This document shows positions 445 to 16,134 of a stretch of 59,431 nt of DNA, in pieces. Below the pieces are notes generated by a model that saw only the letters and a program-made list of their open reading frames with translations, had not been told where the DNA came from and ran no database searches. How positions within the stretch are numbered: position 1 is the first letter of the stretch; every line of letters begins with the position of its first letter. Location: positions 1 to 59,431 of the forward strand of contig NZ_JBBIAB010000028.1 of NCBI RefSeq assembly GCF_039634785.1, given 5' to 3'. The position numbers and the translations under genes are program-made. This DNA is from Tistrella mobilis. GTDB taxonomy: Bacteria > Pseudomonadota > Alphaproteobacteria > Tistrellales > Tistrellaceae.

Positions 445-1026
445 ATGCTGCAACGCATCCTCTCCAGGGTTATAGATCGGTTCCGAAGCGGCTTCGTGCT
501 GCGGGGTTTCCGGCGTGAGCCATTGTCACGCAATGAGGTCACGCCCGCGTTGATCATGACGCCGGAGCCGGCGCCGGAGCCGGAGCCCATTCCGATTCCG
601 CTTGAGCAAAACCTTCCGGCCATAGCGGTCCCGGAAACGATGGCAGAAGAGCCGCCTGTCGAAGATAAGATACAGGCTGCTCCGGAATACCAACCCGACT
701 TGCGAGAACTGACAGAAGTTCTGGAGGATTGCGTCAGTTTATTCGACGAGATAGACGGTCAGATCCCCCTGCTGGATCCGTCGGCTGAAGAGATCGCCAG
801 ACATGTCTGTGATCGGTTACAGGAAATCCTGGAGCGCGCCGGGATGACCGTCATTGCCGAGGATGCCAAATTCGATCGAAGATTTCATAAACCTGAGAAA
901 AAAACAGCCGGAGTGACGGGGGGTGACACCCGTTGGCACGCGCAGATCCTCAGTCCCGGCTTCCAGCTGAACCGCCGGGTCTATCGCCGGGCTCGTGTCC
1001 GTCTGACGTCGATCGAAGACGACTGA
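445..1026 (+). CDS. GrpE-like nucleotide-exchange factor
   Basis: 193 aa. Residues 1-70 are an unstructured linker rich in Pro and Glu (repeats of PEPAPEPEP type). Residues about 75-190 resemble the GrpE core: an amphipathic helical part, then LERAGMTVI, FDRRFHKP and a final beta segment ILSPGFQLNRRVYRRARVRL. That ending has the spacing of the GrpE motif hxxGYxhxxRvhRxAxVxV. GrpE proteins release ADP from Hsp70. The gene opens an operon that ends with an Hsp70-domain protein (4162-6093), which supports the call independently. The long N-terminal coiled coil of standard GrpE is reduced. ATG at 445 is chosen because it is the first start giving the whole frame. Confidence 0.72.
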   Translation: MLQRILSRVIDRFRSGFVLRGFRREPLSRNEVTPALIMTPEPAPEPEPIPIPLEQNLPAIAVPETMAEEPPVEDKIQAAPEYQPDLRELTEVLEDCVSLFDEIDGQIPLLDPSAEEIARHVCDRLQEILERAGMTVIAEDAKFDRRFHKPEKKTAGVTGGDTRWHAQILSPGFQLNRRVYRRARVRLTSIEDD

Positions 1027-1104: not shown

Positions 1105-2136
1105 ATGATGATGTCTGACACACCTCGTGACCCCGCATCGTTGTGGTCTTCTCCCTTCGATCTGGTGACGGCACCCGCGTCGACGGTACAGTCTAAGGTG
1201 CCGGCAGCTGAACCGGTGATCGGTACGCCCCAGGCCGACGCTGTCGCCTGGAGCGGACGACAGGAGCACGACGACACCTGTGCCATCCGCTGCCAGGAAT
1301 TCATCCTGCATCTGTTCACCGGCAATGATCCGGGCGAGGGCGCCTTGCTCAAGGAAGCCATGGACCATGGCTGGTATCGTCCCGGGCATGGAACCACGAT
1401 CACTGATCTTGGCAAACTGCTGGAACAGCATGGCATTGCCGTCAACAGCTTTCATCATGCCAATGTCTTTCACCTCAGCAACGAGTTGGCCCAGGGGCAC
1501 AAGGTTATGGTGGGGGTTCATGCCAATCACCTGTGGCGCGCTGACCCGCTACTCGACGACCTGTTCACCCGTTTGGGTTTAACCGACGCCAATCACGCCG
1601 TTGTCGTCTCCGGTATCGACACCTCCGACCCGCAGCATGTGGGCGTGATCATTGCCGATCCCGGTACGGGTGAACCGGTGGCCCGCTATCCGCTGGAACA
1701 GTTTGTCAACGCCTGGAGTGGCAGCGACTTCTTCATGGTGGCGACAAAAGATCCGGTGCCGCCATCGGCCCATCTCCCGGAGATGGCCAACTTCGACTAC
1801 GCCAAGGGGCATGTCGATCATGTCTGGGGGCTGCCCTATGACATCTTCTCGACGCTCCGCGACGACGTTTCTCATTGGCTCCACACGATTCGCGACATCC
1901 TGGCCCATATGCCGGAGCCGTTTCCCGGTTTGCCCCCGAGCCATCCGGTGGAATTTCCTCTGCACGTCGGCTCGGGTCACGGTAGTTCTGCGGCCCACCA
2001 CGCTGACGGTCAGGATGACCATGCCCAGGCGGGCCTGCTGCATCATATCCACCAGATCCTCGACGTGATCGCCCACCCCGGCTATCCGCATCCGCATGAT
2101 CATCACCAGAACGGTCTTTCGGACGAAGCCGGCTGA
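1105..2136 (+). CDS. C39-like (papain-fold) cysteine peptidase with His-rich C-terminus
   Basis: 343 aa. A peptidase C39-like pattern is visible: QEHDDTCAIRCQ with the presumed oxyanion Gln53 and nucleophile Cys59, NHAVVVSG with His164, and IIADPGTG with Asp185. Together these form a plausible Cys-His-Asp triad. No signal peptide or membrane segment is evident, so it is likely cytoplasmic. The last 65 residues are unusually rich in His (HH, HPHDHH), suggesting metal binding or a flexible tail. It lies 79 bp after the GrpE-like gene and 45 bp before the dynamin-like gene. In a conflict system such a protease could be the effector or processing enzyme (inference). Alternative ATG starts lie at 1108 and 1111. 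Confidence 0.7.
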   Translation: MMMSDTPRDPASLWSSPFDLVTAPASTVQSKVPAAEPVIGTPQADAVAWSGRQEHDDTCAIRCQEFILHLFTGNDPGEGALLKEAMDHGWYRPGHGTTITDLGKLLEQHGIAVNSFHHANVFHLSNELAQGHKVMVGVHANHLWRADPLLDDLFTRLGLTDANHAVVVSGIDTSDPQHVGVIIADPGTGEPVARYPLEQFVNAWSGSDFFMVATKDPVPPSAHLPEMANFDYAKGHVDHVWGLPYDIFSTLRDDVSHWLHTIRDILAHMPEPFPGLPPSHPVEFPLHVGSGHGSSAAHHADGQDDHAQAGLLHHIHQILDVIAHPGYPHPHDHHQNGLSDEAG

Positions 2137-2180: not shown

Positions 2181-4127
2181 ATGACCAGTCTTATGGACCG
2201 GATCGGCGGTCTGCGCGCCGATACCAAGACCCTGATCGACCGCATTCGGGCGGTCAGTCAGACCTGCGACCTGCCGCCGCTGCCCGAGGCGGTGGAGGGC
2301 ATTGTCGAAAAGCTTGATCAGCACCAGTATTCGGTTCCGGTCATAGGCGAGGTCAAGCACGGTAAATCCTCGTTCCTGAACGCTGTGGTCGGAAAATCGT
2401 TGTTGCCGGTGGGAGAAAAGGTCGCCACCAATCAGATCTTCCGCATCGGTAAGGCAGGTGCGTTCGCCTGCCGTCTGCGTTTCGAGGATGGTAGTGAAGA
2501 GCCGATCACCGAGAAGGACCTGGAGACCTTTGGTTCCGAGGTCTATGCGAACAGTCCGCGTGCGCGTGCAGCGGCTCGGGGCAAACTTCTGAGGTGGATT
2601 GAGATCGACGTTCCCGCCGAGGCGGCGAAATTTCTCCCGGACAACATCGTGCTGTTCGACACGCCCGGGCTCGGCTCGATCCACGTCGCCCATGGCCGCA
2701 TCACTCGGCGTCTCCTTCCCTATGCAGATGGCGTCATCTTCGTTCTTACGTCTGAGCGGCCGATAACCGAGGATGAAATCGCCTGGCTCCAGGAGATCTT
2801 CGACATTACCCGGAACGTGTTCTTTATCCAGACGGGCATTGATAAAGGAACCAAACTGTACAAGGAGACCCTGAGCCGCAATCGTGAGATTCTGGTCCAG
2901 CGGTTCGGTGAGAACCTGCCCGAACCCCAGATCTGGCCGGTTTCCAGCACCAACCTGATGAAGGCGACCGAGACCAGCGATATGAGCTATCTGCAGGTCA
3001 GCCGCTTCGATGCTCTGAGCGAGGCCTTGCAGATCTTTCTGTTCCGGTCCGCCGGTGTCGAAAAGCTCGACGAAGCGACGACGATGATCGCGGCGCAGCT
3101 GCACCAGGGGCGCGAAATCCTGGATACGCGCCTGCGTAGTCTGCTGAATGAAACGCGCCAGGAACAGGCGACGATCCAGCGCCAGATCGAGGACAAGCGG
3201 CGTGCCTTCGATCAGAACTGGGGTATCCAGGGCGAGGAACGGACGCGGCTCCTGGCCGATCTTCGGCAGACCCTCCAACGTGGCCGTCGACAGTTTGAGC
3301 AGGCCCTGTATCCCTCCGGCAGTGTGGCACGGGTCATCGGCAGGGAGATCGACCAGATCGACTCCGTCAAGGCGGCTCGCATATTCGCCGAGTCGCTCAA
3401 TACCAATATCCTCGAATGGGCCGAGATCGAATGGCGCAAGGCGGGCCGGGACACCCAGACGGCCTGTACCGCCCGGTTGGCACCGCTGCTCGCCGATATC
3501 AGCGATTTTGCCGCCGGCCTGGAGGAACCCGGTGGCGCCAGCATTTCCCGTACCGCCACGGTGTCGGCGCGTGGCGATCTGTGGACACGGATTGTGGGCG
3601 GTCGGGTTGCTTCTATCCAGGCAGTGATGACGACGGGGGTCGGAGCTACGCTGTTGGGCACCATCATCACCGCCGCCTGGTTTCCACCGCTCTCGCTGAG
3701 CGCGGTCGCCGCCACGGCGGTCTGGAGCTTTTTTCGCTCTTTCCGCGAAACCGGCGAGCGTGAATTGAAGAATGCCAGGGAGGAGCTGCGCCGGCATCTG
3801 ATGGAGGCGTTGAATGAAGTGCGTGACCATTTCCTGCATGTCTCGGCCGGCGAGCCGAGCCCGGTCGACCGATGTTTCGGTGGCCTGGAAACACATGTCT
3901 TCAAGCAGGTCGATGATCTGATTCAGAGCAAATCCTCTCAGATGAAGGAGGAGGTGGAGCGGCTGGAAGCCGACGCCAGGCTGGACAAGGCTGCCCGCGA
4001 GACCCGGCTGGCGTCCTTGCGGGACCAGATCCGGGAATGGGGCGGGTTGATCGAGTCCGGTGATGCGCTCATCGCCGCCATTACCGGCCTGATCGAGGAT
4101 CTGACCCCTCGGAAAGCCGCCCTGTAA
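2181..4127 (+). CDS. Dynamin-like GTPase (1)
   Basis: 648 aa. The P-loop G1 motif is GEVKHGKSS (about residues 56-64) and G3 is DTPGLGS (about residue 160). The G4 position reads TGIDKG rather than a standard TKxD. The middle and end are long helices, interrupted by a hydrophobic segment near residues 480-515 (GVGATLLGTIITAAWF and following) that resembles the membrane-inserting paddle of bacterial dynamin-like proteins. The C-terminus is coiled-coil rich. Bacterial dynamins bind and remodel membranes, and some protect against phage-induced lysis. The gene sits between the C39-like peptidase and Hsp70-FGE genes, all on one strand with short gaps, so it is probably co-transcribed. Confidence 0.85.
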   Translation: MTSLMDRIGGLRADTKTLIDRIRAVSQTCDLPPLPEAVEGIVEKLDQHQYSVPVIGEVKHGKSSFLNAVVGKSLLPVGEKVATNQIFRIGKAGAFACRLRFEDGSEEPITEKDLETFGSEVYANSPRARAAARGKLLRWIEIDVPAEAAKFLPDNIVLFDTPGLGSIHVAHGRITRRLLPYADGVIFVLTSERPITEDEIAWLQEIFDITRNVFFIQTGIDKGTKLYKETLSRNREILVQRFGENLPEPQIWPVSSTNLMKATETSDMSYLQVSRFDALSEALQIFLFRSAGVEKLDEATTMIAAQLHQGREILDTRLRSLLNETRQEQATIQRQIEDKRRAFDQNWGIQGEERTRLLADLRQTLQRGRRQFEQALYPSGSVARVIGREIDQIDSVKAARIFAESLNTNILEWAEIEWRKAGRDTQTACTARLAPLLADISDFAAGLEEPGGASISRTATVSARGDLWTRIVGGRVASIQAVMTTGVGATLLGTIITAAWFPPLSLSAVAATAVWSFFRSFRETGERELKNAREELRRHLMEALNEVRDHFLHVSAGEPSPVDRCFGGLETHVFKQVDDLIQSKSSQMKEEVERLEADARLDKAARETRLASLRDQIREWGGLIESGDALIAAITGLIEDLTPRKAAL

Positions 4128-4161: not shown

Positions 4162-6093
4162 ATGTCCAGGCACATTCTGGCGATCGATCTTGGAACCACC
4201 TATAGCAGTATGGCGACGCTCGACCCGGTCGGCGGGCGTGCGGTGGTGTTGCGGAATGCGGAGGATGAGGAAAAAACACCGTCCGTGGTGTATTTCGGTG
4301 CTGACGGCACAATGGTCGGTACGCCGGCTGAGCACATGCTGGAGGATGAGGAAGAGTCCAGGGCCGTTTTTATGGCGCCGAAGCGCTATCTGAGCGATAG
4401 CGATTTCCTGCTGGCACTTCCGGATGGTCGCATGGTGACGGCGGTGGACGCAGTGACGGCGATTCTGACCAAATTGCGGGAAGATGCCGAGGCGCTGCAT
4501 TTCGGCGGTCCGGTGGGGCCGGTGGTTCTGACCTGCCCGGCAAGCTTCGGGCCTTCGGCGCGTGACGCGCTTCGCGAAGCGGCAGCACGGGCGGGGCTGG
4601 GAGATGTCCGGCTGGTGGATGAGCCCGTCGCCGCCGCGCTTGCCGGATTGCGAGACAGCCAGGGGCAGCTGGGGCAGAGCGTGCTGGCCTACGATCTTGG
4701 CGGCGGAACCTTCGATGCAGCGGTGCTGCGGCGCGACGGAAATGGCTACCGTCTGGCCGCCGAGCCTGGCGGATTGGAGTGGTGCGGCGGAAATGATTTT
4801 GATCGGGCGATCTATGATTGGTTCGACACTGCGGCTTTGAGCGAATGCGGGCAATCATTCGACAGAGCCGCAGGGGGCATCGATCTGAGCCTTCTGCGGG
4901 CCTGCCGCAGGGCGAAGGAGACCCTGTCGGCCAGGCCGACCGTGCTGTTGCGGGGATTGCTGGCCGGGCAGCAGTATAAACAGTCCCTGGATCAAATGGT
5001 GCTGGAAGAGCTGATCGGCAGGCGGATCGAACAAACGGTCGGGCTGAGCGTCGATCTGGTACAGACTGCACGCCGTCGCGGCCATGCGGTGGACAGTGTG
5101 TTGCTGGTTGGTGGTTCCTCGCGGATTCCCCTGGTCCAGAGGCGGCTCCAGGAGGAACTGGCGCCTCTTTTTGAACGGTCAAATCCGATCCGGCTGGGCG
5201 CCACCGGCTTTGCGGTGGTGTTGGGCGCAGTCTATTGCCTGGTCTCGGCGGAGGAGCCCCTGGCGCCGGTATGCTTCCAGACGGCGATGCGCGCGCCTGG
5301 CACCGTGTTCCGTGACGTTAATGCGCCGTGGTGCCCGGCGATGGTGGTTCTGCCGCGCGGCCGGTTTCAGATGGGATCGCCGGAGAATGAGCCGGGGCGG
5401 AGTAACGACGAAGGTCCGCGCCACTGGGTGGAGATCGGCTACGATCTGGCGATCGGGACCTGTGCGGTGAGTTTTGCCGAATGGGATGCTTACGCGCCAT
5501 GGGGATCGGGCCGGTATTATCCCTTCGATGAAGGCTGGGGACGGGATGACCGTCCGGTGATCAATGTGTCGTATGAGGATGTGCAACATTACCTGCGATG
5601 GTTGAACGATCGCCTTGGCCTGACGGGTCGTGAGGATCGTTATCGCCTGCCGAGCGAGGCGGAATGGGAATATGCGTGCCGGGGGGGGACGGTAACACCG
5701 TTCTGGTGGGGTGAGAGGATGACGATGTTCTCGCCCTGGTGGGTGTCCCGGAACATCACGACGCGGCAGGCGAACTATCGTGGCGATGGATCGAGCGGAG
5801 ACTACCGGAAGAAGACGGTTCCTGTGCGCAGTTTCGCTCCGAATCCCTTTGGCCTTTATCAAATGCATGGGAATGTCTGGGAGTTGTGTGAGGATACGTG
5901 GCATGGAAATTATGAGGGGGCACCGGCGGACGGTTCCGCCCGGGCAAAGGCTGACACCTCATCCCGCGTCCTGCGCGGCGGTTCCTGGGACAACATTCAG
6001 CGGTTCCTCCGCGCCGCGTACCACAGCAGGTACGCCTCCGGCACCCGGAGCAGCACAATCGGGTTTCGTGTGGCCAGGACACTCACCTCATAA
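4162..6093 (+). CDS. Hsp70 ATPase domain fused to FGE-sulfatase/C-type-lectin domain (DGR target 1)
   Basis: 643 aa. Residues 1 to about 370 are an Hsp70 nucleotide-binding domain: phosphate-1 IDLGTTYSSM (8-17), phosphate-2 YDLGGGTFDAAV (about 175-187), adenosine motif LVGGSSRIPLV (about 315). The usual substrate-binding domain and lid are absent. In their place residues about 383-643 form an FGE-sulfatase (SUMF1) domain, with RGRFQMGS, LPSEAEWEYACRGG, PNPFGLYQMHGNVWE, LRGGSW and GFRVAR. The catalytic Cys residues of true formylglycine-generating enzymes are missing near the end (GFRVAR, not GFRCA), so binding is likelier than oxidation. The C-terminal 24 codons before GFRVAR form a DGR variable region. 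RBS GGAGG is at 4151-4155. A paralogue lies at 14221. Confidence 0.9.
   Translation: MSRHILAIDLGTTYSSMATLDPVGGRAVVLRNAEDEEKTPSVVYFGADGTMVGTPAEHMLEDEEESRAVFMAPKRYLSDSDFLLALPDGRMVTAVDAVTAILTKLREDAEALHFGGPVGPVVLTCPASFGPSARDALREAAARAGLGDVRLVDEPVAAALAGLRDSQGQLGQSVLAYDLGGGTFDAAVLRRDGNGYRLAAEPGGLEWCGGNDFDRAIYDWFDTAALSECGQSFDRAAGGIDLSLLRACRRAKETLSARPTVLLRGLLAGQQYKQSLDQMVLEELIGRRIEQTVGLSVDLVQTARRRGHAVDSVLLVGGSSRIPLVQRRLQEELAPLFERSNPIRLGATGFAVVLGAVYCLVSAEEPLAPVCFQTAMRAPGTVFRDVNAPWCPAMVVLPRGRFQMGSPENEPGRSNDEGPRHWVEIGYDLAIGTCAVSFAEWDAYAPWGSGRYYPFDEGWGRDDRPVINVSYEDVQHYLRWLNDRLGLTGREDRYRLPSEAEWEYACRGGTVTPFWWGERMTMFSPWWVSRNITTRQANYRGDGSSGDYRKKTVPVRSFAPNPFGLYQMHGNVWELCEDTWHGNYEGAPADGSARAKADTSSRVLRGGSWDNIQRFLRAAYHSRYASGTRSSTIGFRVARTLTS
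5965..6093 (+). other. DGR variable region VR1
   Basis: This is the 3' end of the Hsp70-FGE gene. A conserved frame LRGGSW, then 24 codons (5989-6060), then GFRVART and the stop. Compared with VR2 at 16030-16101, 18 of these 24 codons differ and 15 change the amino acid, while scaffold positions (Leu, Arg, Ala, Thr, Arg) and the flanks are conserved. Differing codons are mostly AAC-like or derivable from one by changes at A, as expected for adenine mutagenesis by a DGR. The 6061-6084 stretch is the likely initiation-of-mutagenic-homing (IMH) site. Confidence 0.85.
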
Positions 6094-6130
6094 ATCTTTA
6101 CATCTTTACCGTTTGTCGCCAGGAAGTGAG

Positions 6131-6153
6131 TCCAGAGGGCTCCGCCCTCTGGA
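6131..6153 (+). repeat. Hairpin/cruciform downstream of VR1
   Basis: TCCAGAGGGC (6131-6140), loop TCC, GCCCTCTGGA (6144-6153): a perfect 10-bp GC-rich stem 38 bp after the VR-containing gene. DGRs of the Bordetella-phage type carry a short GC-rich hairpin just downstream of the VR that stimulates retrohoming. Position and shape fit. A transcription terminator is the alternative, but no T-run follows on the + strand. Confidence 0.7.
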
Positions 6154-6197
6154 GAAAATTTTCAGAGGAGATATTCAGGAACAGGTCATTGGATCCG

Positions 6198-6563
6198 ATG
6201 ACAGCGGACCATTCCCGCCAGACCGGGGCGGCATTGGAGGCGATGTATCAGTTTCATCTTTGGCTGGTGCCTGCGGTGGCGCGTTTCCCCCGTTCGCAGA
6301 AGTTTCTTCTGGGGGACCGGATACAGGTGACGGCGCTTGACGCGCTGGAACGGCTGATCGAGGCGACCTATACACGCAACCGGATGAAGCTGCTCAGCGA
6401 GGCTAATCTGGGGGTGGAGACGCTGCGTTTCCTGTTCCGTCTGGCCCATGATATGGCCTGTCTTGATATGCGCCGCTACGAATATGCGGCCAGACAGATC
6501 GATGGGGTTGGCCGTTTGATCGGGGGTTGGATGAGGGCACACCGTGGCTCCACCTCGGCATGA
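6198..6563 (+). CDS. avd: DGR accessory variability determinant (Avd)
   Basis: 121 aa from ATG 6198. The sequence has the family's pattern: FHLWLVPAVARFPRSQKF, LGDRIQVTALDALERLIEA, LRFLFRLAHDMACLD, YEYAARQIDGVGRLIGGW. Avd is a small four-helix-bundle protein that forms a basic pentameric barrel, binds the DGR reverse transcriptase and template RNA, and is required for mutagenic retrohoming. The gene lies between the VR and the reverse-transcriptase fragment, the usual DGR order. An in-frame ATG at 6126 would add 24 residues encoded across the hairpin, so 6198 is preferred. It looks intact, unlike its partner. Confidence 0.88.
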   Translation: MTADHSRQTGAALEAMYQFHLWLVPAVARFPRSQKFLLGDRIQVTALDALERLIEATYTRNRMKLLSEANLGVETLRFLFRLAHDMACLDMRRYEYAARQIDGVGRLIGGWMRAHRGSTSA

Positions 6564-6867
6564 CCGCCTTTTCGACGCCTCCTTTCAGGCACTGCACGCT
6601 GCCGCTTGCCGCGCCATTCGCGGCAAGCGCAGGAAACCTGGCGCCGCCGCATTCATGGCGTCTCGGGAAAAGGCGTTGTTGCGGCTGGAGCGGGCATTGT
6701 GCGACGGATCAAGGCGTCCGGGCCGCTATGTCGAGATCGAGCTGTTCGATCCCAAGCACCGCATCGTCTCTGCCGCACCGTTCCCGGACCGGGTGGTGCA
6801 TCACTCCTTCGGGTTTCGTGCGGCCAGTACACTCCGCTGCCGGAGCCGGCACCGCGGCTGCCCGTGA
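6544..6867 (+). pseudogene. DGR reverse transcriptase, N-terminal fragment fused to template-repeat tail
   Basis: Codons 1 to about 89 match the N-terminus of DGR reverse transcriptases: AACRAIRGKRRKPGAAAF, LRLERALCDGSRRPG, FDPKHRIVSAAPFPDRVVHH. This is the thumbless fingers start that precedes RT motif 1 and 2. Directly after DRVVHHSF the protein diverges into GFRAAST and stops at 6867. The catalytic (Y/F)xDD palm motif and more than two thirds of the enzyme are missing, so it cannot reverse-transcribe. The new sequence matches the IMH end of VR1/VR2, so a deletion joined RT to the template repeat. The start overlaps the avd end by 20 bp. Confidence 0.85.
6809..6834 (+). repeat. Remnant of the DGR template repeat (IMH* end)
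   Basis: These 26 bases match VR1 6059-6084 with two mismatches (T to C and G to T). Small differences between IMH in the VR and IMH* in the TR are characteristic of DGRs. The rest of the template repeat, with its adenine-rich codons, is gone. The junction to the RT fragment is at about 6807-6809. Confidence 0.7.
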
Positions 6868-6908: not shown

Positions 6909-8600
6909 ATGATACAGAACACCGTCCGTGACGGCCTGGAGCAGGCCGCCCGGGTGCTGGAGCCTGTGGATCCGGCTGCGGCATTGGATCTGCGCCGCTT
7001 GGCCGGGGAAGTCGACAAGCCCTGCACGGTTGCCGTGGTCGGTCGGGTCAAGCAGGGCAAGAGCAGCGTCGTCAATGCCCTGCTGGACGCCGACGTGGCG
7101 ATGGAGGGGACAACGGAGACCACGGCGACGATCAACCACATGGTCTATGGCGTTCCTGACACGCCGGACCGTCCGGTTCTCTGCGTCTGGCGGGACGGCT
7201 CGATCGACGCCTGCGGCCGGGATTTTCTCGACAGTCTGCAAGGGCATGATCTCGCGACGCTTCAGCGTGCCAATGGCATCAGCCGGCTTGAATACCGGCT
7301 TCCCAACCCGTTCCTGCGCCAGGCGACCCTGGTCGACACACCGGGTACAGGGGCTGCCGTCGATGAGCACCAGAACCGCACGGCAGAGTATCTGGCCCTG
7401 GAAAATGAGCTGCGCCAGCGCCATGACGCGGAAACGCGGGCGATCGAGGGGCGGGCGGATGCCATCATCTATGTCACTGGTCATGTTCCTAAGAGCAACG
7501 ATCTGCGATTCCTGGAGGCATTCGGCCGTGGAACCGACGAGCCGTCGCGGGCCCTGAAAGCCGTTGCCGTCATCACCAAAATCGATTCCCGGCCCGACGT
7601 CCTGTCCAACCCGGACGAGTTCGCTGCTGAATACGCTGAGGCGCTGAAGGGGCATATGAGCGCCGTGATCCCCGTATCCGCCAGTCTGTGCCGTGCTGCA
7701 CGACGCCTGCAGGCTGATGAATGGGCCGGCATGGCCCGGCTCATCGACGGTGTGCGGCGCATTCCTCCGGCGACCCTGGAGCGTCTCCTCACCAGCGAGG
7801 AGTGGCTGACCGACGACGATGTTTCCAGTGGGTTGGATTTCGCGCCGCTGTCGCGGTCCGAGGTGCTGGATCTGCGCAGCATGGTCGAGCACTGGTCGGT
7901 TTTCGTCATCATCGCCGGCATCGCCGTCAACGACCGGGGGCTCGATCCGGCCGGGGTGGGCGCGCGCCTTACTGCGCTGTCCGGCTTCGAGCGGCTGCGT
8001 ATGGTGCTGGACCGGCAGTTCTTCGCGCGTGGCCACATCCTGCGCTGTTTCCGTATCATGGACGACGCCATGGCGATGTTGCGCACGCTGCGCTACGACC
8101 GTATCACGGCGCTGCATGACGCGGCGGCGGCCGCGCAGCTTCGCCATCGGCGCTTCTCTGCTCTCCTGGCCGGTGCATTCGGCGACGCCGCGGTTCGGGC
8201 GGAATTGGCCGCGTTCCTGGAAGACGCTCTCGCCGACGACGCGGCAGCCCCGGGTCGCATGGAACACGCCCTCGACAAGGCCCAGCGTCTGCTGGAGCGC
8301 GTGTACGGAACCCTGGTGAAAAACAATCACGATTTTAACGCATTGCAAACGATGATGGCGAGCGTCGATCTGTTCAGCCCGGAGGAATGGGACGAACTCG
8401 AACCCCTGTTCGGGCGCTATGGCCTGGAGCGCAGCGCCCGTCTGCCGGGCAAGGGCAAGGACCGCGCCTATTGCGCGGCGCGCCAGTCCCATTGGAGCCA
8501 GCGCGCCCACCGCGAGCGCAATCCGGAGCGCCGGCTGGTCGCACAGGCGGCCGTGGAGCGGTACGGGGTGTTGATCCGTGAAGAAGGAAGCGGACGATAG
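6909..8600 (+). CDS. Dynamin-like GTPase (2)
   Basis: 563 aa from ATG 6909, chosen for the preceding AGGGAGG (6897-6903). All canonical G motifs are present: G1 GRVKQGKSS (45-53), G2 Thr in the TTETTATIN stretch, G3 DTPGTG (143-148), G4 TKID (223-226) and a G5-like SAS. The rest is mainly helical. A weakly hydrophobic stretch WSVFVIIAGIAV lies near residue 330, but there is no strong transmembrane pair, unlike GTPases 1, 3 and 4. It follows the broken DGR by about 40 bp. It may be the partner subunit of dynamin 1; bacterial dynamin-like proteins often act as unequal pairs. Confidence 0.83.
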   Translation: MIQNTVRDGLEQAARVLEPVDPAAALDLRRLAGEVDKPCTVAVVGRVKQGKSSVVNALLDADVAMEGTTETTATINHMVYGVPDTPDRPVLCVWRDGSIDACGRDFLDSLQGHDLATLQRANGISRLEYRLPNPFLRQATLVDTPGTGAAVDEHQNRTAEYLALENELRQRHDAETRAIEGRADAIIYVTGHVPKSNDLRFLEAFGRGTDEPSRALKAVAVITKIDSRPDVLSNPDEFAAEYAEALKGHMSAVIPVSASLCRAARRLQADEWAGMARLIDGVRRIPPATLERLLTSEEWLTDDDVSSGLDFAPLSRSEVLDLRSMVEHWSVFVIIAGIAVNDRGLDPAGVGARLTALSGFERLRMVLDRQFFARGHILRCFRIMDDAMAMLRTLRYDRITALHDAAAAAQLRHRRFSALLAGAFGDAAVRAELAAFLEDALADDAAAPGRMEHALDKAQRLLERVYGTLVKNNHDFNALQTMMASVDLFSPEEWDELEPLFGRYGLERSARLPGKGKDRAYCAARQSHWSQRAHRERNPERRLVAQAAVERYGVLIREEGSGR

Positions 8601-8635: not shown

Positions 8636-9109
8636 TCAGTGCCTGTCCTTGCTGTTGGACAGGATTATGGTGCTGAGCAGGGTGCCGATGACAAAGCCGA
8701 CGGGCCCCCCCGTCAACAGGGCGCCGCTCACCGGCAGGCCCGATCCGGTTCTGGAGATGGCTGTCTTGGCGCCTGTGGCCTTCGGTGCGACCTCAATCTG
8801 CCGTTCGCGCAGCATCTCGCGCAGCATGTCCGCGAGGTCGAGGAATAAGCCGGGCCGGCAGTCCAGCGCCCTTGCAAGGGCATCGAGCTGCGGTACGGTG
8901 ATGTCTGCCTCGCCGAGTTCGATGCGGGACAGGGTCGGCTGGGATATTTCGGACTGCTTCGCCAGCTGGTTCTGTGACCAGCCCTTTTCCCGGCGCAGCA
9001 CGGCAACGATCAGCCCGACCAGGCCGGTGTAGGTAGCCTCCAGGACCTTACCTTGCTGCCGCAAGGACGCCAGCGCGCCGGCAAGGCTGCGGATGTCGTT
9101 CATTTTCAC
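8636..9109 (-). CDS. Xre-family regulator with C-terminal membrane anchor
   Basis: 157 aa. The HTH_3 motif is at about residues 35-90 (LRREKGWSQNQLAKQSEISQ, LSRIELGEADITVPQL). After a linker a single hydrophobic segment GPVGFVIGTLLSTIIL lies near the C-terminus and would anchor it in the membrane. It is transcribed against the neighbouring GTPase genes and shares its promoter region with the gene at 9232, so it is the likely local repressor. A membrane-tethered repressor beside membrane-acting dynamins could report membrane state (inference). The HTH-dynamin fusion at 11502 has a similar HTH. Confidence 0.8.
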   Translation of the reverse strand: MKMNDIRSLAGALASLRQQGKVLEATYTGLVGLIVAVLRREKGWSQNQLAKQSEISQPTLSRIELGEADITVPQLDALARALDCRPGLFLDLADMLREMLRERQIEVAPKATGAKTAISRTGSGLPVSGALLTGGPVGFVIGTLLSTIILSNSKDRH

Positions 9110-9231: not shown

Positions 9232-11472
9232 GTGAGTCAGTCGCTGTTTGGCGATGATCTGCCGGATCTCTCCACCGTCCGCCTGGCGGCCGGGCTTTCG
9301 GAGGCCGCTCTGGCGTACAGCGTCAACGGTATCCTGGGCGAGGATTGGTTGTCCGCCGACCAGGTCGCCGTGATCGAGCGGAGGGACCCTGCGGGTGAGG
9401 GGCTGACCCGCAGGCAGCACCGGGCCTGGTATCAGGCATGCGGGTACGGCGACAAAATGCCCCCGCTCGACCTCGGCAATCCCTATGCACCGCTGCTCCA
9501 TCGCCGAGAGACCATTATCGCACAGGTTCTGGGCTGGCCAGATCCGGCGTTCGGAGAAGAGGACGCGCAGGCGGGCTTCGACAAGGCCGGAATTCTGGCT
9601 GCCATGGCGATGTGGGTGCGCTTGCCGCGGCTTCTGGTGTCGGGCGGTTTCGATGCGGGCAAGACCTTCCTGTGTAAGGCGCTGATCGGTGATCCGCCGC
9701 ACGAGCAGGGCGGGCTTCTGCGCTCCAACTATGCGCCGGAGACCAGGATGATCACGGTGATCATACATGTCGATCATCGCCCGCCCTGGCTCACCCAGCC
9801 GGTCGCCCTGATGTCCGCCGCCTTCGATCTCGACCGGCTGTACGACCGGCGGCATGTCGAGGCTGAGCTGATACTGGCGGGGGATCGCGCGCTGATCGAG
9901 CGGTTCGCCGTCCATCGTAAGGAAAGGCCGGGTGGTGCTGCGACCGACCAGCCGTGGGCCAGCGATGGCGGGGGCAGTACGGCCGATGCCGATACGCGGG
10001 TGGCTGAAAACGCCGCCTACTGTCTGGTTTTTATGGCAGCCCCTTTGCTGCGATCGCTCATCCTCATCGATCCGCCAGGCTTCGACAGCGGAATGGTACT
10101 CGACCAGGAGCGGGCCCGCAAAATGGCCGGGCTGGCGGACATTGTGGTGTTCCTGTCGCAATTCGTCGGCTTTCTGAACGTCCGCGATTTCAGTCTGCTG
10201 GCCGAACAGCTGCGTGCCCTGCAACTTTATCCGCGGCGTGTCTATCCCGGCATGGGCGCCTTCCGGAACCTCTTCGTGGTTGCCACCCACGCCCGCCAGA
10301 GCCCGGCGGATATCGACCATGTCCTGTCAGAAGGCGCGCGCCGTCTGTGGGCCGATTCAGAGCGATCCTCGAAGCTGTTCCAGCGGCGCGCCGCCGAGGC
10401 GGGAGAAGCGGATGGTGCCCCGGCGCGGCTGCTGGAGCGCTTCTTCGCTTTCTATCCGAACTACCCTTTCGCTCGCGAACCGCTACAGGAAGATCTGGCC
10501 GACCTGCTGGCCGGCCCGTTTCCGCGGGCATTTAATCGCCAGGCGAAGACCGTGACGGAGAGGATCCTTGAGTCAGCCCGGCAGTATTACGCCCGTCGCG
10601 TCACCCGGTTCGACGACCTCCTCAGCGGCCGGTTCCGTCCCGCAGACGAGGTGCGCGCTGCGGAAGCCGCCCGGGACGAAGTCGACCGCAGCATCGTCGA
10701 TCATCGCCGCCGGATGGAAGCCATCATCGCTGAGGCGCGCCGCGCAGGTCTTGAAGCCGCCAATAATGTGACCGACGAACTGTATGATCCGGTCCGCACC
10801 GAACAGATGCTGCGCAGCAACTTCGAGCGCTATGACGACGCGCAACGGCATCTGAGCGCCTTCATCACGGAGACCATCCATGGACGCCTGGAGGATGCGC
10901 TCAACCAGCCCCTGCAATCTTACCAATCCCTGGTCCTGGGCTTCGCGCGCAAGGTGGTGTCTGTGGACCTCTCTAAGGCCAGCGTAGACGTCGACATAGC
11001 GCAGAACGATCTGCTGACACGGCTGGCCACAGTGTTCTTCAACAATGCACCGACCACGCGAGCCATCCTGCAGGCTATCTCCCCTCGCCGTGATCCGGCT
11101 CTCTTCTTCAACCTGCTGTGGCCCGTGGCGCCGACGGTGGCTGCGGCTCTGGCGATGATGTCCATTGGCAACTACGTGACCCGGTGGCCGGACCTGGCGA
11201 AAGCCGTTGTCGGCAAGCTCAGGGATACCAATCTGCGCGTTGCCCTGACGGAAGGTGTTGAAGCGACCTGCGCGTCGCTTCGCAAAGAGTTCGATACGCT
11301 CACCGCCAAGGCGCGGGCGGATCGCCTGGCAGATCTGGCACGCAAACAGCATCGCGCACGACAGTCCGGCGACGAGGCGATGGCATGCTTCCAACGCGAC
11401 CGCGCGTGTGCAGAGACAAACCGCCGACGCATCGAGACGCTGCAACGAACGCTGCGCGACAGCGATCGCTGA
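9232..11472 (+). CDS. Dynamin-like GTPase (3) with N-terminal HTH-like region
   Basis: 746 aa from GTG 9232, with AGGAG at 9219-9223. Residues about 15-75 look like a diverged HTH (VRLAAGLSEAALA, LSADQVAVIERRDP), paralogous to the N-terminus of the next gene. G1 is GGFDAGKTF (138-146) and G3 IDPPGFDSG (about 278). The G4 position is FVVATHA instead of TKxD, so guanine specificity is uncertain. A hydrophobic segment near residue 625 (NLLWPVAPTVAAALAMMSIG) is followed by coiled-coil. It probably forms a pair with the gene at 11502, from which it is separated by 29 bp. Confidence 0.78.
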   Translation: MSQSLFGDDLPDLSTVRLAAGLSEAALAYSVNGILGEDWLSADQVAVIERRDPAGEGLTRRQHRAWYQACGYGDKMPPLDLGNPYAPLLHRRETIIAQVLGWPDPAFGEEDAQAGFDKAGILAAMAMWVRLPRLLVSGGFDAGKTFLCKALIGDPPHEQGGLLRSNYAPETRMITVIIHVDHRPPWLTQPVALMSAAFDLDRLYDRRHVEAELILAGDRALIERFAVHRKERPGGAATDQPWASDGGGSTADADTRVAENAAYCLVFMAAPLLRSLILIDPPGFDSGMVLDQERARKMAGLADIVVFLSQFVGFLNVRDFSLLAEQLRALQLYPRRVYPGMGAFRNLFVVATHARQSPADIDHVLSEGARRLWADSERSSKLFQRRAAEAGEADGAPARLLERFFAFYPNYPFAREPLQEDLADLLAGPFPRAFNRQAKTVTERILESARQYYARRVTRFDDLLSGRFRPADEVRAAEAARDEVDRSIVDHRRRMEAIIAEARRAGLEAANNVTDELYDPVRTEQMLRSNFERYDDAQRHLSAFITETIHGRLEDALNQPLQSYQSLVLGFARKVVSVDLSKASVDVDIAQNDLLTRLATVFFNNAPTTRAILQAISPRRDPALFFNLLWPVAPTVAAALAMMSIGNYVTRWPDLAKAVVGKLRDTNLRVALTEGVEATCASLRKEFDTLTAKARADRLADLARKQHRARQSGDEAMACFQRDRACAETNRRRIETLQRTLRDSDR

Positions 11473-11501
11473 TTTCCTTTCTTCCTCAAGGAGACGTCGC
11501 C

Positions 11502-13565
11502 ATGGATGGCAGTCCCTACTCCCATGATCTCAGAGGCATGCGGGAGGCCGCCGGCCTGACCACCGAGGATATGGCAGAACGCCTTGGCGTTTCCCCGGAG
11601 GTGGTGACCGCTCAGGAAGCCGACCCCGATAATGTCGTCATGGAACAGATCCGCCGCTGGATGGAAGCGACCGGACATGCGGGAGGTGGCGAAGCCATCA
11701 ATCCCGGCACGCCCTACGCGCTGTTCACCGGTGAAGTATTGACCACCACTCGCTACCTCCAGGGCTGGACGGAGGAGGTGCCGGGTCTGGCCGCGCGGCT
11801 TCCCTCGGCGGCGGAGCTGGCGGCGAAGCTGCGCCGTTCGGTGCGCAAGCCCCGGGTCGTGTTGTGCGGAAGCTTCGATGCGGCGAAGACAACACTGGCG
11901 TCCCGGCTCCTCGGCCTGGCACCGGGAACCCTGCCGGCGTCCTTTTCTCCGACGACTAGTCTGATGGTTGAACTGCGCCATCTCGACGACCGCCCCGACT
12001 GGCTGGATGGCGAGGTTGCATATTTCAGGGCGGGGATCGACCTGGATCGGGTCGACGAGAGCGACCATGCGACATCCTGCCTGGTGCGGCAGGATACGCT
12101 CCAGTCGCTTGGCCGTTATGCGACGCATAGGGGCGAGACCTCCGATGCCGAGGAAGCCGAATTCGCGGTGGTCTATCTGGCGGCCGAGGCATTGAAGGCG
12201 TTCCGGGTCATCGACCTGCCCGGCCTCGGTTCAGGCAACCAGGGTGACGAGGACAAGGTGGCGCGCGCCATCGGCCTGGCCGATGTCCTGCTATACCTCA
12301 GCCCAGCCATCCGGTTTCTGACCGAAATCGATTTCCTCGTCCTGCCGCTGCTGCTGCGTGCCTTGCCGCAGGTACCGGGTCTTGATCCGCTTGAGACCGT
12401 CTTCATCGTCGCCAGCCATGCCGATGGTCCGGGTGCGGGGCTGGAGGCCATTCTCGACAGTGGCGCCGTCCGCTTGCACCGTCAGTTGATCGATAGCGTG
12501 TCGCCGGAGGAGGGCGGCACCGCCATGCCGACCGAGGCGGATCTGCGTCGGCGCTTTTTCACCTTCTCGGCGCAGCAGCCGGTGCTCGCCGCAGAGCTGT
12601 CTGCGTCCCTTGAGACGCTGCTGGGCAGGACCCTGCCGGCACCGTTCATGGCACAGCTTCGCCATACAGCCGCCGATATGTTCGACAGCGCCGTTCAGAG
12701 CTGCGAAGCACAGGAGAAGGCACTTCTGGCCCTGAAGGCCGATCGCGAGGAGGCGCATCGGGAGCTTGATCGGCTGAAGGCGACGGAGATGGAACGCGAT
12801 GACCTGGTCCGGCAGGGGCAATCGCGGATCACCGAACTTATCACGAACGAGTTTGCCGCGGCCAAGGAGGACGTCGATGACATCCTGGAGCGCGGGTTGA
12901 CCATCGAGAGCATTGAAGAACGCATCCGGCAGAGTTTTGCCGACAACGAGAAGGATGACGCCAGAGAACGGGCCCTGCCTCTGATCGTCGGCCTGCTCCA
13001 GGCGGAGGTTTCCGGGGCAGCCATGGCCAGAATGGAGCGCATCGAGGGCGAGGTCCGGCAGTTTATCGGCGACTATAACGCCTATTTCGATCCTGGCGAG
13101 GCCATGGCCCGGCTGGAGTTGCCTCGCCTGGATACGGCCCGGATGTTCCGCGTCGGCACGGCCAGTGCCGGGTTGGTGCTTGGCACGCTGAGCACGATGG
13201 GGATCACCGTGTTGTTCCCCATCGCACCTCTGCTGGGGATGGCGCTGGCAATCTTCAGCACCTACAGTCTTATCAGAACACTGCGGCAGGGCTGGCAGCG
13301 GGTGATGGCCCAGCGTATCCGGCAACGGCTGCACGAGGCTGCGTTCGGCCCCGCCCTGCAGAAGGCTGTGCGGCGGATGTTCCGCGAGGTCGGGGAACGA
13401 TTCGACCTTGGCGTCCGCGATATGGAGGTCGGTGCGAAGTCGTATCAGTCGCGTCTGGACGCGGTGCTGGATGGCGAGAGCTCGGACGAGGCCATCGACG
13501 CGATGCTGGATCTCACGCGCCGCTTCACCGTGTTCCTCCGCCTCATTCCGTGGAGCCGGTCATGA
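11502..13565 (+). CDS. Xre HTH fused to dynamin-like GTPase (4)
   Basis: 687 aa from ATG 11502, with AAGGAGA at 11488-11494. The upstream in-frame region from 11385 overlaps the previous gene and is not used. Residues about 8-55 are an Xre-type HTH (LRGMREAAGLTTEDMAERLG, VSPEVVTAQEADPDN). G1 is CGSFDAAKTT, with Ala where Gly is usual before Lys; G3 is DLPGLGSG. The G4 position again carries His-Ala (IVASHAD). A strong double hydrophobic segment at about residues 555-590 (LVLGTLSTMGITVLF, LLGMALAIFSTYS) should insert in membrane. Fusion of a DNA-binding domain to a membrane GTPase is unusual. Confidence 0.8.
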   Translation: MDGSPYSHDLRGMREAAGLTTEDMAERLGVSPEVVTAQEADPDNVVMEQIRRWMEATGHAGGGEAINPGTPYALFTGEVLTTTRYLQGWTEEVPGLAARLPSAAELAAKLRRSVRKPRVVLCGSFDAAKTTLASRLLGLAPGTLPASFSPTTSLMVELRHLDDRPDWLDGEVAYFRAGIDLDRVDESDHATSCLVRQDTLQSLGRYATHRGETSDAEEAEFAVVYLAAEALKAFRVIDLPGLGSGNQGDEDKVARAIGLADVLLYLSPAIRFLTEIDFLVLPLLLRALPQVPGLDPLETVFIVASHADGPGAGLEAILDSGAVRLHRQLIDSVSPEEGGTAMPTEADLRRRFFTFSAQQPVLAAELSASLETLLGRTLPAPFMAQLRHTAADMFDSAVQSCEAQEKALLALKADREEAHRELDRLKATEMERDDLVRQGQSRITELITNEFAAAKEDVDDILERGLTIESIEERIRQSFADNEKDDARERALPLIVGLLQAEVSGAAMARMERIEGEVRQFIGDYNAYFDPGEAMARLELPRLDTARMFRVGTASAGLVLGTLSTMGITVLFPIAPLLGMALAIFSTYSLIRTLRQGWQRVMAQRIRQRLHEAAFGPALQKAVRRMFREVGERFDLGVRDMEVGAKSYQSRLDAVLDGESSDEAIDAMLDLTRRFTVFLRLIPWSRS

Positions 13566-14143
13566 ATCAGCCCGCGAGCCTACCCCATGATCTTGTGCGT
13601 GGATTCAACGCTGCTCTGGTCATTCCCGCCACGGCCTCAACCGTCAAGCAGGCGCAGCGAGAGGCGGCCCGGGAGCTTCACGTGCTCGCCGACTATCATC
13701 GCGCCGCGCGCGCCTCTGGCGGCTTGCCCGCCCTGTCGCGCGCTGAACGCCAGGCTATTTATCGGGTCGCCGAGGTTATTGCCGAGCAGGGCATCAATGG
13801 CACGACCTATCTTCTGGCGGTGAAAACCGCCGCGACGCTTGGCGGCATGGATGGCGGGATGCTGGCTCAGGTGGGCGTGACCCTGAATACGATGGTCACG
13901 CCTGGTCAGACCCAGGCCTTTAACCCCGCTCGCAGCCTGTTCCGTGGAATTGGATTTGAGCCGGACTGGCTCGCCGCGCTGCCGGACTCTGCCGTTCCAC
14001 GCTTCGCGGAGATGGTCGGGCGTATTGCCGCGCGTTGTGGCTACGGCCTGGACCCGTCGCGGCAACGACCGGCTCTGCCGGTCAGAGTCGGACGCGACTG
14101 GGAGCATATGCTGACATCTGCGACCACTGGAAAGGCGGGTTGA
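13562..14143 (+). CDS. Hypothetical protein of the dynamin/Hsp70 locus
   Basis: 193 aa. ATG 13562 overlaps the stop of the HTH-dynamin gene (ATGA), indicating translational coupling; an ATG four codons earlier also exists. No domain is recognised. It is mostly helical, with VKQAQREAARELHVLADYHR, LSRAERQAIYRVAEVIAEQG and a Gly/Met-rich LGGMDGGMLAQVG. No signal peptide or membrane segment. The context suggests an adaptor or regulator for dynamin-like GTPase 4 or for the second Hsp70-FGE protein. It ends 77 bp before that gene. Confidence 0.7.
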   Translation: MNQPASLPHDLVRGFNAALVIPATASTVKQAQREAARELHVLADYHRAARASGGLPALSRAERQAIYRVAEVIAEQGINGTTYLLAVKTAATLGGMDGGMLAQVGVTLNTMVTPGQTQAFNPARSLFRGIGFEPDWLAALPDSAVPRFAEMVGRIAARCGYGLDPSRQRPALPVRVGRDWEHMLTSATTGKAG

Positions 14144-14220: not shown

Positions 14221-16134
14221 ATGACATTGCGTGTACTCGGGATTGATTTCGGAACCACCTATAGCAGCATGGCGACGCTTGACCCGGTAAGCGGACGTGC
14301 AACGGTCCTTCGGAACGCGGAAGGCGAGGAAAAGACCCCGTCGCTGGTATATTTCGGTGCCGACGGCACGCTGGTGGGGACGCCGGCCCAGAATATCATG
14401 CTGGAGGATGAGGAAGAGGCGGCGTGGGTGTTCATGGCGCCGAAGCGCTATCTCGGTGACGGGGATTTCGTACGGGCGCTTCCGGATGGTCGCGTGGTGA
14501 CGGCCGTGGACGCAGTGGCGGCGATTCTGACCAAACTGCGGGAAGATGCCGAGGCGCTGCATTTCGGCGGTCCGGTGGGGCCGGTGGTTCTGACCTGCCC
14601 GGCAAGCTTCGGGCCTTCGGCGCGTGACGCGCTCCGCGAAGCGGCGGCGCGGGCGGGGTTGGGGGATGTCCGGCTGGTGGAGGAGCCTGTGGCCGCCGGC
14701 CATGCCGGGTTGCGGGACCAGGGACAGCGCCTGGGTAATGTCGTGCTGGTGTACGACCTGGGGGGTGGAACCTTCGACGCTGCGGTGCTGCGGCGAGTGG
14801 AGGATGGCTACCGGGTGGTGGTGGCGCCCCGAGGGCTGGACCGGTGCGGCGGCGAGGATTTCGACCGGTCGGTCTATCGGTGGTTCGACGGGGCGGCGCG
14901 GGAGGAGCATGGAAGGTCCTTCGACGCCTCTGACGGCAGCTTCAACTCTCCTGTGCTGCGGGCCTGCCGGATGGCGAAGGAAGCCCTGTCGTCGAAGCCA
15001 AAGGTGACTTTGCGGGGGGTCCTGGCGGGACAGCGCCATAAGCAGGATCTGGATCAGGCGACCCTGGAAGGGTTGATCGACGAGCGTATCGCTGCGACGG
15101 TGCGCCTGAGCAAGGACCTTGCAGATGCGGCGGATCGGCGCGGGCATGCGATAGAGCATGTGTTGCTGATCGGGGGGTCGTCACGAATACCGCTGGTGAC
15201 GCGACAGATCGTCGAGGCGCTGACAGAGCCGCGGGGTCTGCCGGAACCGTTGCGGCTCGGCGCCACCGATTTCGCAGTGGCGATGGGGGCGGTCTATGCG
15301 CTGGTTGCTCTTGACGACATGGCCCCCTCCGCTGGGTCGCCGTGGCGGGTACGGGCGCCTGGCACCGTGTTCCGTGACGTTGATGCGCCGTGGTGCCCGG
15401 AGATGGTGGTTCTGCCGCGCGGCCGGTTTCAGATGGGATCGCCGGAGGATGAGCCGGGGCGGAGTAACGACGAAGGTCCGCGCCACTGGGTGGAGATCGG
15501 CTACGATCTGGCGATCGGGACCTGTGCGGTGAGCTTTGCCGAATGGGATGCTTACGCGCCGCGGGGATCGGAGCGATATCATCCATTCGATCACGGGTGG
15601 GGACGGGATGATCGTCCGGTGATTAATGTGTCGTATGAGGATGTGCAACATTACCTGGACTGGGTGAACGATCGTCTTGGCCTGACGGGCCGTGAGGATC
15701 GTTATCGCCTGCCGAGCGAAGCGGAATGGGAATATGCGTGCCGGGGTGGTAGGGAGACACCGTTCTGGTGGGGCGGGAGCATCACGCGGCGGCAGGCGAA
15801 CTATAGTGGAGACTATACTAATGCCGTCAAATGGCTTGGAGAATATTTTAAAAGGACCGTTGCTGTGCGCAATTTTGTTCCGAATCCCTTCGGTCTTTAT
15901 CAGACGCATGGGAATGTTTTGGAATGGTGTGAGGATACATGGCATAAAGATTATATTGGCGTACTGACGGATGGCTCGGCATTAGTAAAAAAATCCTCAC
16001 CAATCCGTATCCTGCGCGGCGGTTCCTGGAACGACGATTCGAGGAATCTCCGCTCCGCGTCCCGCAACTGGTTCCCCTCTGCCACCCGGCTCAGCTGGAT
16101 TGGGTTTCGTGTGGCCAGGACACTCATCTCATAA
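14221..16134 (+). CDS. Hsp70 ATPase domain fused to FGE-sulfatase/C-type-lectin domain (DGR target 2)
   Basis: 637 aa from ATG 14221. It is a paralogue of the protein at 4162: Hsp70 motifs IDFGTTYSSM, YDLGGGTFDAAV and IGGSSRIPLV, no substrate-binding domain, then FGE domain RGRFQMGSPEDEPGR, LPSEAEWEYACRGG, HGNVLEWCEDTW, LRGGSW, GFRVAR. Long tracts of the ATPase domain (14520-14680 against 4440-4620) and of the FGE start (15355-15560 against 5275-5480) are nearly identical in DNA, implying recent duplication or gene conversion. The stretches 14745-15350 and 15765-16000 have diverged. It lacks a good Shine-Dalgarno. The 3' end is the second variable region. Confidence 0.88.
   Translation: MTLRVLGIDFGTTYSSMATLDPVSGRATVLRNAEGEEKTPSLVYFGADGTLVGTPAQNIMLEDEEEAAWVFMAPKRYLGDGDFVRALPDGRVVTAVDAVAAILTKLREDAEALHFGGPVGPVVLTCPASFGPSARDALREAAARAGLGDVRLVEEPVAAGHAGLRDQGQRLGNVVLVYDLGGGTFDAAVLRRVEDGYRVVVAPRGLDRCGGEDFDRSVYRWFDGAAREEHGRSFDASDGSFNSPVLRACRMAKEALSSKPKVTLRGVLAGQRHKQDLDQATLEGLIDERIAATVRLSKDLADAADRRGHAIEHVLLIGGSSRIPLVTRQIVEALTEPRGLPEPLRLGATDFAVAMGAVYALVALDDMAPSAGSPWRVRAPGTVFRDVDAPWCPEMVVLPRGRFQMGSPEDEPGRSNDEGPRHWVEIGYDLAIGTCAVSFAEWDAYAPRGSERYHPFDHGWGRDDRPVINVSYEDVQHYLDWVNDRLGLTGREDRYRLPSEAEWEYACRGGRETPFWWGGSITRRQANYSGDYTNAVKWLGEYFKRTVAVRNFVPNPFGLYQTHGNVLEWCEDTWHKDYIGVLTDGSALVKKSSPIRILRGGSWNDDSRNLRSASRNWFPSATRLSWIGFRVARTLIS
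16006..16134 (+). other. DGR variable region VR2
   Basis: Same frame as VR1: LRGGSW, 24 codons at 16030-16101, then GFRVART and stop. The 18 bases before and 24 bases after the variable block are identical to VR1 except for flanking drift, while 18 of 24 codons differ inside. Variable residues include N, D, D, S, N, S, S, R, N, W, F, P, A, L, W. This shows that both paralogues were written from a related template. Confidence 0.82.

Follow-up and report, generated by a model that had tools for sequence, protein, structure and literature searches.

In the window analysed here, the whole of a 59,431-nucleotide contig of Tistrella mobilis (NZ_JBBIAB010000028.1, assembly GCF_039634785.1), two genes each join an Hsp70 nucleotide-binding domain (NBD) to a C-terminal domain of the formylglycine-generating enzyme (FGE)/C-type lectin fold. 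Remnants behind them show that a diversity-generating retroelement (DGR) once adjoined the FGE fusion and has been lost in this genome. The fusions recur with conserved neighbours in Azospirillum sp. RU38E, where FGE/C-lectin tips and tandem-repeat beta-helix tips occur side by side, and in both genomes the fusions have lost the Hsp70 linker and substrate-binding domain. On balance, the comparison of the sequences favours a mobile, defence-like multigene system in which the Hsp70 ATPase would act as a nucleotide switch, not as a folding machine, and would carry exchangeable C-terminal recognition tips.

We refer to the two window fusions as T1 (copy 1) and T2 (copy 2), to the three FGE fusions of RU38E as R1, R2 and R3, and to codons 610-633 as the variable region (VR). 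T1 begins directly with the NBD and has no signal peptide visible in its sequence; Pfam HSP70 covers residues 92-332 (2e-45) and FGE-sulfatase residues 391-639 (5e-52; window 4162-6090). Its NBD keeps IDLGTT, Lys74, Glu154, DLGGGTFD and GGSSRIP, including when aligned to DnaK (2v7y), and all seven Hsp70 domains examined in the two genomes keep IDxGTT, K74 (T1 numbering), EPVAA, DLGGGTFD and GGSSRIP. The phosphate and adenosine motifs of an Hsp70 are thus present, and the linker and substrate-binding domain are not: the LDVTP linker, which couples the two domains in DnaK, is absent from all seven, and an FGE or beta-helix domain replaces the substrate-binding domain. An AlphaFold2 model of T1 built from a 27-row alignment (pLDDT 80.5, pTM 0.56, relative domain placement uncertain) matched a DnaK model best among Hsp70-family structures (Z 36.8, 358 residues, rmsd 2.8), and its residues 376-641 matched PvdO (Z 33.4, 246 residues, rmsd 2.2). 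The FGE domain is homologous to the DGR-variable protein TvpA (PDB 2y3c; 9e-12, and 1e-11 in a second comparison). The LCHDSYC stretch, which holds the catalytic Cys pair of FGE enzymes, is replaced in T1 by a gap and non-Cys residues in an alignment to solved FGEs; T1, T2, R1, R2 and R3 all lack Cys at the catalytic places, with cysteines elsewhere in the VR of R1 and R2, and the domain does not have the Cys pair of a formylglycine-generating enzyme. The initial annotation, made from the letters of the window, had described both the NBD without a substrate-binding domain joined to an FGE/C-lectin fold and the missing catalytic cysteines, and both descriptions hold; it had overlooked the second fusion (14224-16134) together with the avd remnant behind it.

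The relative in RU38E was found by a genome_contigs scan (84,980 species, according to its description) with the peptide patterns MLEDEEE and GTTYSSMA. The Hsp70 half lies there on a single contig, with an identity of 60-62%. The RU38E cluster has five fusions: three end in FGE domains and two in right-handed beta-helices (Beta_helix 4e-140), the latter made of 138-bp tandem repeats with 10.7 units in one copy and 7.7 in the other. Between a beta-helix fusion and an FGE fusion, 314 of 350 Hsp70 residues (~90%) are identical while the tips are unrelated, and the tips therefore appear to have been exchanged on a conserved ATPase domain. The main gene order is common to the window and RU38E (GrpE-like, C39-like, dynamin-like GTPase, Hsp70 fusions, GTPase, helix-turn-helix (HTH) regulator, two GTPases, 197/198-aa protein, Hsp70 fusions), and identities of 51-75% were measured for four orthologue pairs. 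Additional open reading frames (ORFs) lie in the RU38E cluster, for example L020:4170-4715, and the cluster contains no avd or reverse transcriptase (RT) gene. We also observed that the third FGE fusion of RU38E (L020:8001-10184) has an insertion inside its FGE domain with a partial match to a biotin/lipoyl domain (6e-6).

The fusion had initially been interpreted as a chaperone with changeable target choice, that is, a true chaperone whose client-binding half has been swapped for a diversified lectin-fold domain and which remodels changing clients. The intact NBD motifs in all Hsp70 domains examined, the GrpE-like gene nearby, the position of the tip in the place of the substrate-binding domain and the presence of a DGR-type VR and avd with the Hsp70 NBD-FGE fusion all agree with it, and the ligand of the tip could be handled at the expense of ATP. 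The loss of LDVTP in seven of seven domains and the reduction of the DGR to a remnant speak against it, no J-protein was noticed in the cluster, and the beta-helix tips on sister genes and the LeoA-like GTPases point to sensing or signalling; we therefore keep it as one option only, an unlikely one and less likely than a nucleotide switch. A switch in signalling or defence fits better than protein folding because of the absent linker, the beta-helix tips, the GTPase and C39-like neighbours, the type IV secretion system (T4SS)-like genes and the Hma genes described below. In such a switch, an invader molecule bound by the tip would change the ATP/ADP state of the NBD, the GrpE-like protein would reset the nucleotide cycle, and the signal would be handed on to membrane-located dynamin-like GTPases, with the C39-like peptidase as a possible further recipient, so that infection is limited. 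With the DGR gone, the present tips would be frozen variants.

In DGRs, the template carries AAY codons, so that VRs derived from one template share codon position 3 and differ at positions 1 and 2. Since no template survives, we compared the VRs of copies within one genome. Between T1 and T2, the VR differs at 21/48 positions 1+2 and 4/24 positions 3, against 209/1212 and 205/606 in the rest of the gene (Fisher 7.6e-4); the corresponding counts are 17/48 and 5/24 against 118/1210 and 136/605 for R1/R2 (0.0048), 18/48 and 1/24 against 173/1200 and 221/600 for R1/R3 (6.6e-6), and 19/48 and 6/24 against 176/1200 and 217/600 for R2/R3 (0.0021). These four pairs come from two genomes and are not independent, and the depletion at the third position is by itself significant only in R1/R3 (P 2.4e-4; P 0.05-0.54 in the other three). 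Scored with a measure of our own devised after the VR alignment had been seen, no other 24-codon stretch of the same genes reached the value of the VR in any of the four within-genome pairs (0/573, 0/574, 0/568 and 0/569). The ratio of nonsynonymous to synonymous divergence (dN/dS) in these pairs is 0.15-0.32 for the Hsp70 domain (0.32 for T1/T2), 0.19-0.36 for the FGE domain outside the VR and 1.3-30 for the VR; R1/R3 show 0.2 synonymous differences over 16.8 sites in the VR and 79.6 over 142.8 in the FGE domain outside it. The Hsp70 domain and the FGE domain outside the VR are thus under purifying selection (dN/dS 0.15-0.36), and the 24 codons have diverged in the manner of a DGR target. From this codon pattern we infer that mutagenic retrohoming by a DGR probably diversified the tip, with one template common to the copies.

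It is improbable that the FGE tip was shaped instead by ordinary duplication, gene conversion and positive selection, with avd and the stubs described below as chance neighbours. RU38E, which has no detected RT, avd or template and yet has FGE copies that differ in the VR, would suit such a history. It is opposed by the R1/R3 comparison, with its single third-position difference in the VR and its excess at positions 1+2, by the position of avd directly behind copy 1 with a remnant behind copy 2, and by the match of the template stub to the end of the VR.

The remains of the DGR follow copy 1. Behind the avd gene, the RT gene survives as a stub that shares 40% of 73 aligned aa with a DGR RT of Nostoc (1e-15, a single comparison) and 39% of 84 aa with the RT of a viral DGR, L116 (E 1e-4); no Pfam or NCBIfam family matches the stub. 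A stub of the template repeat (TR) at 6809-6834 agrees with VR1 positions 6059-6084 in 24 of 26 bases (E 0.001 genome-wide). The two stubs are now joined in a single ORF (6544-6867), which is short; the greater part of both RT and TR is therefore lost. The avd remnant behind copy 2 aligns with a score of 73, against 29 for the best of 500 shuffles and 38 for the best of 92 other stretches of the window; the duplicated unit therefore probably held the target and avd, and copy 2 has probably decayed further. Of the parts of a functional DGR, Avd and a C-lectin-fold target with a C-terminal VR are present; a complete RT and a TR with adenines at the variable VR positions are missing, only the 26-bp stub being left. 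The local DGR is dead and cannot diversify the fusion in the genome as assembled, unless the 62-contig assembly lacks a piece. The viral locus (L116:841-4316) gives an intact-looking counterpart, with a related FGE target, avd, RT and one downstream template-like repeat at 2593; ungapped, 67 of 112 bases of this repeat match the VR, and the first 18 of 45 mismatches fall on repeat adenines, after which the register seems to slip.

Against this background, the avd, RT start and TR tail named in the initial annotation are all borne out, and its placement of the VR in the last 24 codons needs one correction: the 24 codons are right (residues 610-633), but a constant tail, GFRVARTLTS, follows them. 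Its view of a DGR aimed at the fusion agrees with avd and with the VR signature in five genes of two genomes; it was silent on the element being a non-functional remnant. The GC hairpin that it listed is present in the sequence and may be a DGR element or simply a terminator: 10 of 200 shuffles were equally stable, and copy 2 has no such hairpin behind it.

We consider it similarly improbable that the whole cluster is a decaying, non-functional relic drifting on a mobile element. The broken DGR and the fragmentary avd of copy 2 would agree with this; the fusion ORFs are open, as are the other main ORFs of the cluster, and the T1/T2 dN/dS of the Hsp70 domain speaks against it. Diversification by a DGR in trans, on another replicon or phage, is very improbable: the VR signature of RU38E in the absence of any DGR found and the chance of a lost piece (the window's genome, G000, is split over 62 contigs, and that of RU38E was assembled from shotgun data) would allow it, but neither genome has a second template-like match (next best E 0.05 in G000 and 0.1 in RU38E), and the only RVT_1 match in G000 is closest to the defence RT Drt1a (2.4e-49), on which ground a trans-acting RT is rejected for that assembly; RU38E has no RVT_1 match at all. 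This Drt1a-like RT is a 919-codon frame on the minus strand within L001 (G000:C2:436592-440161). Since the RU38E assembly has no match to RVT_1, avd or a template, its VRs either date from a DGR that has since been lost or were made elsewhere before transfer.

The genome sets that we searched for relatives of the fusion overlap in part, and three to four candidates per genome were scored in those of 387, 397, 400 and 377, so that more distant fusions could have escaped notice. With the whole fusion as query, 96 related genomes including its own (E <= 1e-60) and 387 genomes of the class (E <= 1e-62) gave no further Hsp70-FGE fusion, the Hsp70 half retrieved only the window's own two from 397 genomes of the phylum (E <= 1e-45), and no fusion appeared in 400 and 377 genomes of the phyla of two other loci (E <= 1e-55; the zero for the 377 has no positive control). 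The remaining matches in the sets of 96, 387 and 400 cover the FGE part only or little more. At 1e-62 the fusion was unmatched in G154, listed as the window's own species, and in G001, of the same genus, and GTPase 4 was found in one of 82 genomes of RU38E's family at 1e-15, namely RU38E itself. Among 72,556 plasmid records, 12 matched at 1e-40 and none covered 80% of the fusion; the fusion profile matched no viral contig. None of 84 FGE-bearing loci (79 viral, 5 from the class search) has the Hsp70 half, and two have avd and RT. An intact relative with complete RT and TR, proposed initially as a check, was thus found in none of the genome sets, plasmids or viral contigs searched.

Several candidates were set aside. 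The genome_contigs scan returned six loci, the three of RU38E and L022, L023 and L024 at 22-31% identity, of which L022 is an ordinary DnaK and L023 a 551-aa Hsp70-like protein without an FGE match. A longer-looking match on the Nostoc plasmid pn2 is a 977-aa FGE protein with only the FGE domain in Pfam, the avd of G481 is part of another DGR that has RT matches and no Hsp70 or FGE match, and the FGE proteins of G124 and G1133 have other N-termini (by eye).

The cluster behaves as mobile, and T4SS-like genes near both clusters suggest conjugative transfer; in the window they occupy 24007-34600 (translations read by eye). PADLOC matches to HmaA, HmaB and HmaC, of an anti-phage system, lie at window 43392-54634, where a PtuA-like ATPase gene separates HmaA from HmaB, and the Hma and T4SS-like setting is like that of defence islands. 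All other main ORFs of the cluster are listed in Table 1 with the fusions and the DGR remnants. The RU38E orthologue of the GrpE-like protein is 51% identical and scores 13.6 bits with Pfam GrpE, and a two-row profile of the protein matched nothing in the PDB. The C39-like protein is 69% identical to its RU38E orthologue, with C59, H164 and D185 invariant; its fold model (pLDDT 40) was too poor to use, and its profile matches to HslV and RebH were judged chance.

Table 1. Coordinates of the fusion genes, DGR remnants and neighbouring genes (window positions unless a locus is named)
Feature	Position	Strand	Remarks
Hsp70 NBD-FGE fusion, copy 1 (T1)	4162..6093	+	643 aa; NBD ~1-360, linker ~361-385, FGE 391-639
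VR1, codons 610-633 of copy 1	5989..6060	+	codon-position differences from copy 2
avd, DGR accessory protein	6126..6563	+	NCBIfam NF033474 104.4 bits (cut-off 80); Pfam bAvd 9e-18; start codon uncertain
Perfect 10-bp hairpin behind VR1 (DGR element or terminator)	6131..6153	+	z -1.98
5' remnant of DGR RT gene	6544..6801	+	~86 codons, ending at DRVVHH motif
3' remnant of TR	6809..6834	+	26 bp
Hsp70 NBD-FGE fusion, copy 2 (T2)	14224..16134	+	72% identical to copy 1
VR2, counterpart of VR1 in copy 2	16030..16101	+	
avd remnant behind copy 2	16274..16358	+	local alignment; whole alignment to 16556
Hsp70 NBD-beta-helix fusions, RU38E	L019:5067-7934; L020:4760-7942		
GrpE-like, possible nucleotide-exchange factor	445..1026	+	Pfam GrpE 16.7 bits (cut-off 25.8)
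C39-like (papain-fold?), candidate effector or processing peptidase	1105..2136	+	Peptidase_C39_2 19.9 bits (cut-off 24)
Dynamin-like GTPase 1	2181..4127	+	Dynamin_N 3.7e-19; PADLOC LeoBC 2.3e-13
Dynamin-like GTPase 2	6909..8600	+	Dynamin_N 5.2e-13
HTH regulator	8636..9109	-	HTH_3 6.4e-14; RU38E counterpart L019:13880-14350
Dynamin-like GTPase 3	9232..11472	+	Dynamin_N 0.0042 (below cut-off); LeoBC 1.9e-4
HTH-dynamin-like GTPase 4	11385..13565	+	Dynamin_N 2.8e-8 (above cut-off); LeoA 1.6e-10 / LeoBC 2.2e-10; RU38E orthologue 69%
197-aa protein, unknown fold	13550..14143	+	75% identical in RU38E; no Pfam match

Two side observations concern the contig beyond the cluster. AbiEii/AbiEi-type toxin-antitoxin genes at window 36159-37805 are 79-85% identical to two plasmids, and between ~35100 and 40940 lie pieces, covering 15% of window 20000-44000, whose identity to a plasmid of Tistrella mobilis is 97.5%. 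In RU38E, genes at L020:11116-17159 (minus strand) read by eye like type IV secretion parts.

A number of findings weigh against the switch reading and its DGR component, among them the post hoc nature of the window score given above. The system is known from two genomes only, among those searched. The VR signature is weaker in most cross-genome pairs, where the windows reaching the VR score number 0/568 for T1/R1, 50/568 for T1/R2, 3/568 for T1/R3, 61/572 for T2/R1, 77/572 for T2/R2 and 4/572 for T2/R3, as expected if the lineages had different templates. Of the variable VR columns, 16/25 and 19/29 contain adenine, against 44/93 and 115/244 of the control columns; the direction is right and the effect weak, and with the template lost an A-specific bias cannot be demonstrated directly. 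The GrpE-like and C39-like proteins both score below their Pfam cut-offs, and neither a J-domain protein, for which no model search was made, nor a client was identified.

Taken together, the cluster resembles a sensor system that has gone unrecognised and is probably of an immune type. More tentatively, it may form a receptor array on an Hsp70 ATPase, in which a conserved switch is present in several copies with different tips, the FGE tips varied by DGR mutagenesis and the beta-helix tips by tandem-repeat change, all signalling through dynamin-like GTPases against invaders. The literature searched, as far as it is open-licence and supplementary tables aside, yielded no Hsp70-FGE fusion, no Hsp70 as a DGR target and no description of an Hsp70 as an immune-type sensor. 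DGR-diversified cellular sensors have been described, in the sections concerned, on NACHT/STAND, AAA or vWA partners (PMC7159879, PMC10907252). If an Hsp70 ATPase is indeed such a partner, the actin-fold ATPase cycle would join the immune-type switches, and there would be a natural case of other binding domains standing in for the substrate-binding half of an Hsp70. This modularity can be tested directly in the RU38E array, where different tips sit on ~90% identical ATPase domains, and the intact tips in two genomes in which the DGR is gone or undetected lead one to ask for how long a frozen DGR variant remains useful.

Among the known systems close to the cluster is Eleos, the LeoA/LeoBC dynamin-like anti-phage system: the GTPases match the PADLOC LeoA and LeoBC models weakly (best 2.3e-13), whereas here four GTPases stand with Hsp70 fusions, a GrpE-like and a C39-like protein. 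TvpA, a surface lipoprotein, shares the homologous FGE domain, and the LCHDSYC stretch is likewise absent from its aligned row; in our fusions the FGE domain instead follows an Hsp70 NBD at the N-terminus, with no visible signal peptide. PMC7159879 (eLife 2020) describes GTPase systems that contain HSP70, GrpE and an HSP70 without the peptide-binding domain, with FGS effectors in certain GAP1-N2 systems of planctomycetes. It treats vWA-FGS proteins accompanied by DGRs apart from these, and the sections concerned mention no Hsp70-FGE fusion. Our cluster resembles the GAP1-N2 DO-GTPase systems described there in combining GTPases, an HSP70 without peptide-binding domain and GrpE, but Pfam assigns Dynamin_N to its four GTPases (one below cut-off), with no match to a DO-GTPase or GAP1 family, whose coverage in Pfam was unchecked. 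The DGR targets described by Dore et al. 2024 (PMC10907252) are those of NACHT/STAND and MoxR systems, and the main text never uses Hsp70, DnaK, chaperone, GTPase, dynamin or a word that starts with one of them. Roux et al. 2021 (PMC8144416) indicate, in the part available, that many kinds of domain could join C-lectin tips, 71% of the sequences in the main target clusters having no known domain outside the VR region. Like the conflict sensors with DGR-varied FGE/C-lectin domains, as portrayed in the relevant parts of PMC7159879 and PMC10907252, the fusions have an NTP-binding or adaptor N-terminus, a C-terminal FGE domain with a VR, an adjoining DGR, duplicated targets and conflict-type neighbours. 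They differ in using an Hsp70 NBD as the NTPase, in having dynamin-like GTPases instead of MoxR/vWA or NACHT as neighbours, in the broken DGR and in the beta-helix tips on sister genes. DGR-diversified, NTPase-linked sensors are thus already known; the Hsp70 platform is unusual, and a second type of tip is added to it.

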